64,000 nt of DNA from Brevibacillus panacihumi W25 (GTDB taxonomy: Bacteria; Bacillota; Bacilli; Brevibacillales; Brevibacillaceae). How positions within the stretch are numbered: position 1 is the first letter of the stretch; every line of letters starts with the position of its first letter. Positions 55,287 to 60,172 of this stretch are shown here, piece after piece. The notes beneath the pieces are model-generated. The model did not search any database. It saw nothing but the letters and a program-made list of their open reading frames with translations, and had not been told where the DNA came from. Both the position numbers and the translations under genes were made by a program. The stretch covers positions 372,001 to 436,000 of the forward strand of contig NZ_KI629785.1 of the NCBI RefSeq assembly GCF_000503775.1. The letters are read 5' to 3'.

Positions 55287-55387
55287 GAAAAGTGTCTACC
55301 CCCAATTTTGCCCGTACCGGGTATATGTCCATGACTGCTCCTGCCTTGTTGAATAGGATATAGCATGCATAGAAGGAGGTGTCACGA

Positions 55388-55921
55388 ATGAAAACGGCCA
55401 AGGCCGGCATCAAAAAAAACGCCCGTTCCTCTAAGCGTTCGTCTCGTATCATCCGCGCCCCTTCATTCACAAAGGGCGGCAAACCCCGTCCTTTTCGCAT
55501 CCATGTTCGTGCTCCAAAGGTTCATGTAACGACCCCTGCTCCACATCTGACGGTCACGCCTTCGACACCTGCGGTACAGGTAGAGGCCCCTACCGTTCAT
55601 GTTGAAGCGCCGAAACCACTCGTGATTCCCGCTCCGATCGTCAAAGTCGAAGTGGAGGCAGAAGAGAACCCGGCTGTCGAATGCATCAAAGCGCTTCGCA
55701 AAGAACTTAGCAAATGCCAAAAGCAAAATCAGAAGGTTGAGCTGTTGTTTTCTGCCGACCTTGGTTCGCAAGGCAGACAGTATCGGATCGGACACTTGAT
55801 ACGTGTAGAAGAAGGCATCATCGTACTGCGCACATTGTCCACAGAGGAAAGGCAAGGAATGACTGTCTTGATTCCCTTGAATCGAATCGTAGCTGTCATT
55901 CCTGATACACCCTTCTCCTAG
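55388..55921 (+). CDS. Basic, Pro/Val-rich protein with C-terminal beta domain, unknown
   Basis: 177 residues. The N-terminus is strongly basic (KKNARSSKRSSR). A low-complexity middle (about 40-90) repeats V-H-V or V-x-V pairs with Thr/Pro/Ala such as VHVTTPAP and VEAPTVHVEAP. The last 60 residues (LFSADLGSQGRQYRIGHLI, LIPLNRIVAVIP) look like a small beta barrel. No signal peptide. It may be a spore-surface or nucleic-acid-binding protein; that is a guess. AAGGAGG precedes ATG 55388. Confidence 0.65.
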   Translation: MKTAKAGIKKNARSSKRSSRIIRAPSFTKGGKPRPFRIHVRAPKVHVTTPAPHLTVTPSTPAVQVEAPTVHVEAPKPLVIPAPIVKVEVEAEENPAVECIKALRKELSKCQKQNQKVELLFSADLGSQGRQYRIGHLIRVEEGIIVLRTLSTEERQGMTVLIPLNRIVAVIPDTPFS

Positions 55922-56010: not shown

Positions 56011-57156
56011 TCAACGAAGTGCATCCCAGACCGCCTGGACTTCATTCGCTACCCGTTCCCAAGTAAATCGTTCGAGCGCCAATTTTCGACCGGCAGCTCC
56101 CATTTTTCTCTGTAGATCCCGGTTGGATAAGAGTTGATGAAGCTTCTCGGAAAAAGCCAGGGGATCTTCTGGCTGCTCCACCAAAAGGCCATTGCCTCCG
56201 ATGATAACCTCCGCATTTCCTCCTCTTTTCGTGGTCACGAAGGGAAGTCCTGCAGCCATTGCCTCGTAGTGAACACGTGCCAATGGCTCCTCCCATTGCG
56301 ATGGACAGACGAAGATGTCTCCAGCCCAAAACCAGTGATGGATCTGTTCAGCTGGTACAAAGCCGGTCGTCACTACCGGAATAGGAGAGCGGTCAGCAAG
56401 GGAACGGACGTAAGCTACGTAGTCACTCACTTTTTCCACACCGTACCAGGATCCTCCAACGAGCACGAGGGCGATGTTGGAATGCCTTTTGCTCAAGTCA
56501 TTCATAGCGCGAACCAGAATATCTGCGCCTTTTTTCGGTGTCAATCTGCCGACGAACAAGATGACTTGCTTTCCGTTTAACTGATGCTGGCTTCTTAATT
56601 CCTGGCGAACCTGACGCGCTTTCTGCGACTGCTCCCAGGGGACAAACGTCTGCAGATCGACGCCCGAGTAGATCGTCCTTAACTTGCTCGCCGCTTCGGG
56701 AAACAGAGAAGCTATGACGCTACCTACGTAGTCACTGACCGTAATGATCCGCTCAACTTCCTGGATGGCCTTCACGGCTTCTTCTCGTGCAATTTTCGAA
56801 GCGTCGAACATATCATTGTGCATGCTCAATACCAATCTCGCTTGGGGACAGATTTCCCGAATGAGAGGGATCAGACGAGGACGATTGAAGACGTGAATCA
56901 TGTCAAAGGTTTGTGTTTGCAGCAATTGCCTGATTTCCTCTGCGTAAATTTCAAACACGCCCTGACCGTTCACCCGTATATAGCGCACATTGCGAACCCG
57001 TTCATCAGCAGGAAGCGTGGGATCTGTCGTCCCAATCACGGTAACATCATGGTATTTGCCTAACTGATCGACAATTCCTGAGATATAGGTTTGAATGGCA
57101 CCGCCGCGGACTGGAGGCACGGGCAATTTTTCCGTACATATCATAGCTACCTTCAT
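56011..57156 (-). CDS. Glycosyltransferase family 4, CotSA-like
   Basis: 381 residues of the GT-B fold: PPVRGGAIQTYI near the start, the linker VGRLTPKKGADIL, and the GT4 donor-site EEPLARVHYEAMAAGLPFVTTKRGGNAEV (in parts). It resembles spore coat protein SA of B. subtilis, which lies beside cotS. It probably transfers a sugar onto a coat component. ATG 57156 follows AAAGGGG. It lies 25 nt after the CotS-like gene and is probably co-transcribed. Confidence 0.88.
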   Translation of the reverse strand: MKVAMICTEKLPVPPVRGGAIQTYISGIVDQLGKYHDVTVIGTTDPTLPADERVRNVRYIRVNGQGVFEIYAEEIRQLLQTQTFDMIHVFNRPRLIPLIREICPQARLVLSMHNDMFDASKIAREEAVKAIQEVERIITVSDYVGSVIASLFPEAASKLRTIYSGVDLQTFVPWEQSQKARQVRQELRSQHQLNGKQVILFVGRLTPKKGADILVRAMNDLSKRHSNIALVLVGGSWYGVEKVSDYVAYVRSLADRSPIPVVTTGFVPAEQIHHWFWAGDIFVCPSQWEEPLARVHYEAMAAGLPFVTTKRGGNAEVIIGGNGLLVEQPEDPLAFSEKLHQLLSNRDLQRKMGAAGRKLALERFTWERVANEVQAVWDALR

Positions 57157-57181
57157 GCTGATACCCCTTTCCTCATGCGGT

Positions 57182-59287
57182 TCATCGCAGACCACCCGAT
57201 GTTTTCACACCGCGCTTCGCACTTGGTCTTCGGGCTGGATTCCGCGTCACGCGGTGCTTGGGACCTGCTGCTTTGCTGTAGGAGAGACGCCTTGCGGAAG
57301 AGGTTTTTCGCGCCTTGTTGACAGACTTTGTTGCTTGTTTTGGTCTGGACGCAGATTTCCCTGACACCGTCTGCTTTCTTGCAGCTTTTTGCGGTTGATT
57401 GGTCCTGCTCTTGACTGTGCGAAGTGTCGACTTCGCTGCAGTTGCTGCCCGTTTCGTCCTACTGGATGCGGCAGTCTTTTTTCTCTTTACGGATGAAACA
57501 CCGCTTTTGGTCCTGGCACTTGCGCTCTTTTTCTTCAGCTTTGATTTTTGTGTCGAGCTGGCCAAATACGGAAGCAGATCAATTACATTGGTTACGGGTG
57601 CCATGCTTTGAGACCTTTGCGAGCTCCGTGACAAAATCCGTTCGCGTTTCTCTGCGGAGGAAGCTGTAGAAGCTGCGGCGCTCTTGGTGTCACGCTCTGG
57701 AAGCGCGGTTGGCTTCGCTTTGGGTGCCTCGGTTGCTTTGACTTTTGTTTCTTTCTTCGGTTTGACCATTGCTTTTTTGTCCGCAGTCGAAGCAGTTTCT
57801 CGTTTTACAGGGGCACTTTTTTGTTCGGCTTTCTTCTTGCCAGACTCCACGGGATCGGCTTTCTTCTTGCCAGACTCCATAAGATCGGCTTTCTTCTTGC
57901 CAGATTCCACGGAATCGGCTTTCTTCTTGCCAGATTCCACGGAATCGGCTTTCTTGCTGGTCTCCATGGATTTCGTTTTCTTGGCGATCTCCATGGATGT
58001 CGTTTTCTTGCTGGCCACCGCAGGTGCAGCTTTCTTGCCACTTTCCACTTTCGCATCTTTCTTGCCAGCGTTGTTTGTTGCTGTTTTTTGCGGCAGCAGG
58101 ATCCATTTTTTCGCTTCCCACGTAATCTTGGATGGTACTTTTTCCGACGTATCCGGCACGCTGACCTGATCGTAAGCTCCTGCAGCATACTTGGATTTGT
58201 CTTTCGCCAGTTCGGCCAAAGCCTGCCATTTGGTTTGATCGGTCGCCACGACACGCTGCAGGATCGCTTCTGCCTCTGTGTTCAAAAAGGTAACCGGGTC
58301 GAAAAACATTTCTTTCAAGTGCTTGTAAAATTCATTTGGCATCGCCATGTCGATCAGCAGAACCTCGAAGGACTCGGCGTCCAATGGATTCGCCCGATGA
58401 TAGGCGTCGATCATGCCGCGCATCCAGGTGAGATCCCATACACCCATGTCGTCCATCGTACTTGTAATCAACTTGCGCAAATCACGGAAGGGCAGGTCAT
58501 ATGCTACCCCATCGAGGTCGATAACCCATAGTCCGCCGGGTCCATTTTGTCCATTTGACCAGCCGTAATCCTGATGCACCAGCCCCCAATAAGGCTCTCC
58601 TTTTGCCACCATCCGAGCATAAGCGGATTCCTGCAATCGCCTCATCGCATCCATGGCATGTTGTTCATACTGATCAATGACGGAGAGAATGGAAGCGCTC
58701 GCCGCTGTGTCCTTGTAAGCCTTGGCTACTTCTCGCATCCAGCCTATTTTTTTGGTGATTTTTTGATAGTAATTGGGCCAGCGATACAGACGCGAAGAAT
58801 TTTTCGCACCTGCTGGTGGAATGTAGCCTTTGGTATGCACATGAAATTCGCCTAATCCATAGCAAAGCTCTTCCGCACCGACCAAATCCACCTTTGTAGC
58901 CGGTTGGAGCGCGATCCAGTCCGTAACAATCCAGAGCTTACCGCCTTTCTCGACGAACATTTTCCCATCCTGGGCTGGGATCAAGGCCGGGACTCTGGCC
59001 CCTTGCTTGACCACGTACTCCTGCAGACCCACACTAAACAAGCTGCGTTCTGGTCTGCGATGCAGAAGCTTGAGACTGCGCGGTCCTTTGTTGGTCTCGA
59101 TTCGCCAGATTGCTCCACCTTTATCTGGCTTGGAAGTAATCAATGTCTGACTGCTGACTGCCATATCGTAGTGCTTCATGACTTCTTCTGCCAACACGTC
59201 TATTTCCGGCGGGACGTGCATATCCCAGTCTACAGGCGTAGTGGCACTCTGTCTGGTGTCCCACGGTTGGATCAGATACTCTTCCAT
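57182..59287 (-). CDS. CotS-family spore coat kinase-fold protein with long Lys-rich tail
   Basis: 701 residues. The first 370 form a CotS/YutH-type aminoglycoside-phosphotransferase fold: HRRPERSLFSVGLQEYV, HQDYGWSN (catalytic loop, about 235-245) and VIDLDGVAYDLP (metal-binding DLDG). From about 395 to the end the sequence is almost only Lys, Ala, Ser, Thr, Arg and Val, with four 10-residue repeats ADSVESGKKK (about 445-490) and later Arg/Lys/Ser-rich stretches. Ordinary CotS proteins stop near 350 residues. GGGAGG precedes ATG. It is upstream of a CotSA-like gene. Confidence 0.9.
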   Translation of the reverse strand: MEEYLIQPWDTRQSATTPVDWDMHVPPEIDVLAEEVMKHYDMAVSSQTLITSKPDKGGAIWRIETNKGPRSLKLLHRRPERSLFSVGLQEYVVKQGARVPALIPAQDGKMFVEKGGKLWIVTDWIALQPATKVDLVGAEELCYGLGEFHVHTKGYIPPAGAKNSSRLYRWPNYYQKITKKIGWMREVAKAYKDTAASASILSVIDQYEQHAMDAMRRLQESAYARMVAKGEPYWGLVHQDYGWSNGQNGPGGLWVIDLDGVAYDLPFRDLRKLITSTMDDMGVWDLTWMRGMIDAYHRANPLDAESFEVLLIDMAMPNEFYKHLKEMFFDPVTFLNTEAEAILQRVVATDQTKWQALAELAKDKSKYAAGAYDQVSVPDTSEKVPSKITWEAKKWILLPQKTATNNAGKKDAKVESGKKAAPAVASKKTTSMEIAKKTKSMETSKKADSVESGKKKADSVESGKKKADLMESGKKKADPVESGKKKAEQKSAPVKRETASTADKKAMVKPKKETKVKATEAPKAKPTALPERDTKSAAASTASSAEKRERILSRSSQRSQSMAPVTNVIDLLPYLASSTQKSKLKKKSASARTKSGVSSVKRKKTAASSRTKRAATAAKSTLRTVKSRTNQPQKAARKQTVSGKSASRPKQATKSVNKARKTSSARRLSYSKAAGPKHRVTRNPARRPSAKRGVKTSGGLR
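57825..57956 (-). repeat. 30-bp tandem repeat inside the CotS-like tail
   Basis: Four copies of a 30-bp unit plus a partial fifth, starting at 57825, 57855, 57885 and 57915. They encode the ADxxESGKKK decapeptide. Copies three and four are nearly identical, indicating recent slippage or unequal exchange. Confidence 0.85.
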
Positions 59288-59345
59288 TTGCTTCCTCCCG
59301 TCCTACAAATGTCATGCTGTAGTGTTCCTTCCCTATTCCTATTCA

Positions 59346-59369
59346 GTCCGTTTTCATCAGGAAACGGAC
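59346..59369 (-). promoter_or_regulatory. Hairpin in the CotS-like leader
   Basis: GTCCGTTT/AAACGGAC, perfect 8 bp with an 8-nt loop, lies 59 nt upstream of the ATG. No U-run; it may be part of the mRNA leader or an operator. Confidence 0.4.
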
Positions 59370-59500
59370 AAATAGCCATAGCTATTCGCCAGTTCTTAAA
59401 CAATTGCGGAGGTACAGTTGGCATCGTCAAGCCTATTGATGATGACTCTCACTGAACCTTTCTACCTTTATCTCCTTACCGAAAAGAACCTCCGAATACA

Positions 59501-59530
59501 GAAAAAAAGACGCGTCCCCGACGCATCTTT
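59501..59530 (-). terminator. Terminator of the polyacidic protein gene
   Basis: AAGATGCGTC/GACGCGTCTT with a 3-4-nt loop, followed by TTTTTTTC on the minus strand. Confidence 0.82.
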
Positions 59531-59566
59531 TTCCAGATCGATGTTCTCTCTCTTCAATGATTAGGA

Positions 59567-59938
59567 TTAGGCTTCGTCTTCGTCTCCATCTTCCTCTTCG
59601 TCTTCTTCTTCGTCCTCTTCTCCGTCTTCCTCTTCGTCCTCTTCTCCGTCTTCTTCTTCATCATCCTCTTCGTTGTCTTCATCCTCTGCTGCATCTGCCT
59701 GAAATGCTTCGTCCTCGTCGTCCTCGTCGTCTTCTTCGCCGTCTTCTTCGCCGTCTTCTTCGTCTTCGTCGTCTTCGTCGTCTTCCTCATCGTTGTCTTC
59801 CAGGACAGGATCTTCATCGCCGCGGAAAAGCCATTTTCTCTTGCCGCCGTCTTCGTATTCTACTTTTACCTCTACTTCCTCGATGTCATCGTCATCGTCA
59901 AGAATGTTTCTCAACTGCTCCAGCCATCTGTTTCCCAT
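59567..59938 (-). CDS. Polyacidic protein, possible spore coat component
   Basis: 123 residues. The first 50 have a short helical start (GNRWLEQLRNIL) and a beta-like EEVEVKVEYEDGGKRKWLF. The rest, from about residue 55, is almost only Asp and Glu with a few Gly and Ala. There is no signal peptide or membrane segment. ATG 59938 follows GGAGG by 7 nt. It lies directly upstream of the Lys-rich CotS-like gene, with its own terminator and a sigma-K-like promoter (59995-60022). No family is recognised. Confidence 0.75.
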   Translation of the reverse strand: MGNRWLEQLRNILDDDDDIEEVEVKVEYEDGGKRKWLFRGDEDPVLEDNDEEDDEDDEDEEDGEEDGEEDDEDDEDEAFQADAAEDEDNEEDDEEEDGEEDEEEDGEEDEEEDEEEDGDEDEA

Positions 59939-59994
59939 AACCACACCTCCGGTACCCAATAATGTCATGTCAGCGGAGTCACCGTTGACTGTAG

Positions 59995-60022
59995 TACTAT
60001 ATGACAAATCATTGAGCTTTGT
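59995..60022 (-). promoter_or_regulatory. Sigma-K-like promoter of the polyacidic protein gene
   Basis: On the minus strand CATATAGTA (59995-60003) fits the mother-cell consensus CATANNNTA exactly, and an AC dinucleotide lies 17 bp upstream (60021-60022), the sigma-K -35. The short consensus makes chance matches possible, but it is correctly placed about 57 nt before the ATG. Confidence 0.55.
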
Positions 60023-60172
60023 ATGAGCAGTTGTCCCTCCTTACAATTGTTTTTTCACTCAGTTTCCGCCTATTGCTCGATGACATAAGGTACATATTTG
60101 GAAACAATCTGGACAAACTTTTCATGATCAATCCGGTCTCACTTACAAAGGAGAGGAGGTGAGTATTTCGTT

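Follow-up and report, generated by a model that had tools for sequence, protein, structure and literature searches.

In the accessible text of the account of the bacterial spore kinases, the ytaA/cotS cluster is described with cotSA, ytcC, ytcA, ytcB and ytdA, and CotSA of Bacillus subtilis is reported to need CotS (Scheeff 2009, PMC2860764). At the exosporium, BclA docks through a short N-terminal domain, as given in a source of which part was available (PMC10470788). Both the cluster of cotS, cotSA and nucleotide-sugar genes and N-terminal docking of BclA are, on these partial texts, already known (PMC2860764, PMC10470788). In the available parts of two further reports, CotB, CotG and CotH of B. 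subtilis form a phosphorylation module with phosphate on Ser repeats (PMC7821199), and F-ENA spore fibres belong to another family, DUF4183 (PMC11952670). The openly searchable literature, mostly in the form of titles and abstract openings, yielded no account of the head domain described below or of acidic proteins at the CotS locus.

The window, which is the whole 64-kb stretch of DNA that was analysed, contains a CotS-family kinase-like gene of 701 aa (57182-59287, minus strand). Its product scored 277 bits against TIGR02906 (cut-off 173), which places it in this family, and it carries an HQD...N...DLD motif. The putative catalytic Asp, Asn and DLD are present (HQDYGWSN, IDLDG), the residues being named as in the available text on bacterial spore kinases (PMC2860764). 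A CotSA-like GT4 glycosyltransferase (56011-57195, minus strand; PF00534) adjoins it. The original prediction had placed a polyacidic 123-aa open reading frame 5' of the CotS-family gene, and this was confirmed: the acidic gene (59567-59938, minus strand) starts with an ATG at 59938, with a GGAGG ribosome-binding site 7 nt upstream (59946-59950, minus strand). Asp and Glu make up 78 of its 123 residues (35 D, 43 E) and 79% of the final 82, and among the reading frames of at least 40 aa in the window it is the only one to reach 16 or more D/E per 25 residues. The downstream protein had been described as ending in 300 residues that are nearly all Lys, Arg, Ser and Ala. The basic tail exists (57182-58192; 336 aa, net +63), but its composition was overstated: over the final 300 residues, K/R/S/A account for 58% and K/R for 28%.

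Like the ytaA/cotS cluster, the locus combines CotS with a CotSA-type glycosyltransferase, and in the Paenibacillus and Desulfosporosinus loci that were read, nucleotide-sugar genes (assigned by sequence look) are present as well. Unlike that cluster, as set out in the accessible part of its description (PMC2860764), the present loci include the acidic gene and its head domain. CotB-CotG-CotH, as far as the available text goes, is similar in being a kinase-linked coat system with highly charged repeats; there, however, Ser repeats are phosphorylated, whereas the charge of the window protein is encoded as Asp and Glu (PMC7821199). This protein contains no Ser or Thr at all that could be phosphorylated or O-glycosylated. 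It matched no Pfam or NCBIfam model, including those for the collagen repeats and C-terminal domain of BclA/BclB-type proteins.

Alignment of orthologues revealed that the conserved part of the acidic protein is a head of about 45 aa and not the acid run. In the window it spans residues 1-47 (59798-59938, minus strand) and is predicted to form a helix and a beta hairpin; L6, L9, V24, Y28 and G31 are among the positions invariant in 16 aligned sequences. With the first 52 residues as query, a head match was obtained in 23 of the 26 genomes of the genus. Each of these 23 has the acidic gene 5' of CotS and CotSA, all three in the same orientation, with CotSA adjoining CotS. The tail (59567-59797 in the window, minus strand, stop codon included) varies in length, and its net charge spans -9 to -106 across the 23 orthologues while the head is kept. 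PdaA/AspA lies near the module at 21 of the 23 loci; in the other two genomes (G003, G025) PdaA is located elsewhere and the module is still together. A 180-aa gene (55379-55921, plus strand), without family match in Pfam or NCBIfam, is kept with the module at 22 of 23 loci and is convergent to the acidic gene, CotS and CotSA.

In the three genomes of the genus without the head, CotS had no match at E 0.001, the 180-aa gene was unmatched, and the glycosyltransferases found were only 28-35% identical; PdaA was present. In a PdaA tree built from 27 sequences these genomes form one clade, and joint absence of the module is accordingly read as a single event. The head was also undetected in 13 other genomes of the family, where CotS relatives were 19-25% identical or lacking. 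The profile A2 found 22 Brevibacillus heads among 398 genomes of the window's class. As a side observation, the 180-aa gene, lost along with the module, encodes a basic start and repeated HVxAP segments.

Named genomes outside the genus were then covered by a CotS-domain scan, which gave 79 loci, 64 of them non-Brevibacillus, with CotS at 56-68% identity. Polyacidic reading frames recur near CotS in the non-Brevibacillus loci, with differing position and strand. Heads (called below E 1e-6) were found within 7 kb of CotS at 41 of the 64, comprising 32 Paenibacillus or Cohnella loci and nine of Desulfosporosinus type, and 39 of the 41 carry acidic tails of net -11 or lower. The head was undetected at the other 23, which include Tumebacillus, Alicyclobacillus, Shimazuella and Robertmurraya loci and some that end at contig ends. 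The original prediction had named conservation of the neighbourhood as a test, and the neighbourhood is indeed kept, both at every Brevibacillus head locus and beyond the genus. At the four Desulfosporosinus-type loci that were read (L141, L144, L160, L167), the CotS domain and the CotSA glycosyltransferase form a single long fusion protein, which agrees with the dependence of CotSA on CotS in B. subtilis reported in the accessible text on these kinases (PMC2860764). A short conserved end, for example KVNVINR, follows the acid run in the acidic proteins of L141, L144, L145, L160, L167 and L190.

Since the heads are short and rich in Glu, and Brevibacillus-Paenibacillus cross-matches are weak (E 0.005-0.33 among 16,067 reading frames of the 79 loci), look-alike heads might have arisen near CotS in three separate families. 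Profile comparison with hhalign argues against such convergence, with 91.6% for Brevibacillus and Paenibacillus, 93.1% for Brevibacillus and Desulfosporosinus, and 87.1% for Paenibacillus and Desulfosporosinus, against less than 5% in 179 of 180 column-shuffled controls. The sole outlying shuffle, one of 60 in its set, was a 13-column alignment at 99.8% and was taken as an artefact. In the same 16,067 reading frames, the Brevibacillus HMM found a Desulfosporosinus head at E 1.6e-5 and the reverse search gave E 3.5e-4; moreover, 10 of 11 matches of the Brevibacillus HMM outside the genus with E below 1 are head genes. The locus and the promoter type described below are also common to the three lineages. 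Convergence is consequently rated as quite improbable and, judged by profile comparison, the head is one family common to Brevibacillus, Paenibacillus and Desulfosporosinus, with linkage to CotS-CotSA.

Whole-genome searches extended this linkage. A Paenibacillus profile, built without L168, L176, L183 and L188, was applied to 35 of these 64 genomes, most of them known head carriers, and matched 33 of them with 61 matches in total. The head lay inside the CotS locus in 32 of the 35, which shows that it is rare away from that locus in these genomes and is not to be read as a linkage frequency. Among 104 genomes of one family, that of Paenibacillus, which were not selected for CotS, 16 matched, nine known and seven new. 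The best head match stands beside CotS (60-63%) and CotSA (51-56%) in six of the seven new genomes; in the seventh, where the contig is short, it is a collagen-like protein. In the window's class the Paenibacillus profile matched one of 398 genomes, at a threshold that misses Brevibacillus heads. That match (G137) is an 88-aa acidic-tailed head gene, and CotS was absent from the surrounding 18.7 kb. The Brevibacillus profile gave three weak partial matches beyond the genus (E 0.002-0.006).

The leader of the acidic gene had been predicted to hold a sigma-K-like promoter. For this analysis we took the sigma-K consensus to be AC-N16-18-CATAnnnTA. The window leader holds the -10-like CATATAGTA (59995-60003, minus strand) with a -35-like AC 17 nt upstream (60021-60022, minus strand), and conservation in the orthologues indicates that AC-N17-CATATAGTA is not there by chance. 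Across the 23 orthologues the -10 reads CATATAGTA in 19, CATATAGTG in three and CATACCATA in one. The full motif occurs within 260 nt upstream of 11 of 13 head genes from named Brevibacillus and of 14 of 42 others, compared to 18 of 699 controls (p 8e-11 for 14/42, relatedness ignored), the controls being upstream regions of other long reading frames at the same loci, some of them perhaps spurious. All nine Desulfosporosinus-type head genes are among these 14. CATAnnnTA alone occurs in 28 of the 42 non-Brevibacillus leaders against 64 of 699 controls (p 1e-17, again ignoring relatedness) and is absent from the remaining 14; it also precedes 17 of 24 head genes from the further Paenibacillus places, the unselected genomes and G137. 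The promoter type thus recurs outside Brevibacillus. Upstream of the -35, GGACAACT (60029-60036, minus strand) is conserved in many orthologues; we take it to resemble a SpoIIID box.

A dyad just 3' of the -10 (59969-59989, minus strand) may be a leader hairpin or a DNA operator, for which there is modest support. As an RNA stem, 88.8% of its cells are paired across 19 leaders, the other four of the 23 having been left out (three identical to others, and L038, which differs outside the stem). One pair is changed on both sides in seven sequences, with a covariation score equalled by three of 500 shuffles, and the numbers of changed pairs and of pair types were no higher than in shuffles. Between the acidic gene and CotS (279 nt, 59288-59566) lies a terminator-like hairpin (59498-59535, minus strand; -17.7 kcal/mol, z -5.0). 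The sigma-K-like motif was found upstream of none of 23 CotS genes and none of 22 copies of the 180-aa gene. CotS upstream regions share by eye another element, ATATTTGTCC...CGAATA (in the window within 59288-59400, minus strand, and in orthologues). With no copy of the acidic gene's motif and an element of its own, CotS may differ from the acidic gene in timing and may not be co-expressed with it; co-transcription of the two genes is disfavoured by the hairpin and the differing elements.

A putative leader hairpin and a terminator-like hairpin of its own mark the acidic gene as an independent unit, and its place beside CotS could in principle be incidental, the protein having no spore role. 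Linkage across several genera despite differing gene order, the six of seven CotS-linked heads in unselected genomes and the recurrent sigma-K-like promoters all speak against this, and it is considered very improbable.

Structure prediction with AlphaFold2 gave a helix-strand-strand unit for the window head (pLDDT 76.5, pTM 0.51) and the same unit twice for the Paenibacillus head (pLDDT 84.5, pTM 0.70). The unit is single in Brevibacillus and Desulfosporosinus and doubled in Paenibacillus; we infer that the single unit may form a dimer. No clear structural relative emerged: Foldseek gave no match at E 0.001 or better, a sequence search of the PDB had a best E of 0.044, and the best VIA-align scores were Z 6.6 for a designed protein and then 5.8-6.4 for Clostridioides difficile SlpL, a range which the tool's own note calls uninformative.

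The same head also opens proteins with different tails. At 12 further places found with the Paenibacillus profile, it starts collagen-like proteins, which are 201-904 aa long and in one case include a beta-propeller, and the other tails seen on the Paenibacillus head are a polybasic end (L230), a His/Cys-rich stretch (L232), an acidic stretch (L233) and none (L231). Four collagen-bearing head proteins were scanned: all four have collagen repeats and two (L222, L228) a C-terminal TIGR03721 match above cut-off. Over the head, Pfam gave no match in 11 head proteins scanned; near the head of the collagen-like proteins, NCBIfam gave collagen adhesin models below cut-off and nothing above. The TIGR03721 domain is shared with BclB-related exosporium glycoproteins, from which the window protein differs in having neither this domain nor collagen repeats. 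As with BclA, known here from part of its description, an N-terminal part is proposed as the attachment for a displayed and sometimes collagen-like polymer; unlike the BclA segment, the head is a predicted folded domain of 45-85 aa without NCBIfam match, its tails vary, and its docking is a proposal (PMC10470788). Collagen-like GXT proteins opened by the head in Paenibacillus were seen at L222-L229, L233, L263 and L270.

The original prediction had the acidic and basic tails forming an electrostatic, coacervate-like complex, which could be the main function of the pair. In the window the two tails are opposite and similar in size (about -65 and +63), and the two genes are neighbours in the genus. 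However, the charges of the acidic and CotS tails are uncorrelated in Brevibacillus (n=12, rho -0.47, p 0.12) and Paenibacillus (n=32, rho 0.20, p 0.28); an earlier Brevibacillus comparison had included the broken CotS frame of L026, and the later one excluded loci without a CotS tail. In the nine Desulfosporosinus-type loci they do correlate in the direction expected from the prediction (rho -0.72, p 0.03), the "tail" there including the fused glycosyltransferase. Each tail also occurs without the other: at the Desulfosporosinus-type loci the acidic gene is present although the CotS tail is not strongly basic (net -22 to +21), and basic CotS tails of +36 to +53 occur without a detected head at three Shimazuella loci and in Paenibacillus sediminis. 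Together with the different upstream elements of the two genes, this leaves such a complex possible but not favoured, and we regard it as unlikely to be the main function.

Calcium binding by the acidic protein, also proposed, is possible. A tail whose main task on the spore is to store cations or nucleate minerals (calcium, manganese) would fit the Asp runs of up to about 100 in some relatives and the His/Cys-rich tail of L232. It would be harder to reconcile with orthologues whose tail is 8-10 residues long and with head-only proteins at two Paenibacillus loci, and as the principal role it seems doubtful, if somewhat less so than the electrostatic complex.

We consider it probable that the acidic protein is a late mother-cell spore-envelope protein. 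The observations behind this proposal are the family itself, the conserved head, linkage to CotS-CotSA, recurrent sigma-K-like sites and tail exchange; its timing, spore location, head docking and tail role are what we infer from these sequences. The acidic gene would be expressed late, in the mother cell, and the alpha-beta-beta head would dock the protein in the layer, coat or exosporium, that is built with the CotS-CotSA module, where the disordered polyanionic tail would be displayed. The fixed negative charge of the tail would hold cations and water, and might offset the charge of nearby basic partners, the CotS tail among them. A place at the spore surface is suggested by the linkage to coat genes, by promoters of the late type and by the presence of the head on collagens of the exosporium kind; that the head stays stable while the tails change suggests docking as its role.

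An unnamed head family with interchangeable tails points to a novel type of anchor at the spore surface. In the broadest form of this idea, to which we give slightly less than an even chance, the head would be a docking domain of the spore surface, made of one or two alpha-beta-beta units and portable between proteins, which Brevibacillus, Paenibacillus and Desulfosporosinus use to display a polyacid, collagen-like, His/Cys-rich or polybasic polymer or none; its home would be the CotS-CotSA glycosylation locus, and the product of that locus its dock. If so, a component so far missing from the cotS-cotSA cluster would be supplied in several groups of spore formers, and there would be a candidate anchor for the collagen-like exosporium proteins of Paenibacillus that differs from the short N-terminal segment of BclA. 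Attachment of such proteins to spores would be directly testable, and the head could anchor spore display. The acidic protein would also be an example of a coat candidate whose head is stable while the Asp/Glu runs that carry its charge change fast.

Further features of individual loci were recorded. An SNF2-type helicase gene of 1085-1099 aa, named by sequence look, stands between the acidic gene and CotS at L027, L028, L030, L031 and L042. The interval between the two genes is at least 3.5 kb at 17 of 23 loci, and the helicase gene was present at all five of these that were read. A function tied to the helicase was rejected, as six of the 23 loci (the window and five others, by gap size) are without it. 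The CotS reading frame is broken after 198 aa in L026 and L119 (B. reuszeri NIT02). Finally, the record NZ_CP064048.1 (L124), titled Anoxybacillus sediminis, contains the Brevibacillus module with B. thermoruber as its closest relative, and its title may be wrong.
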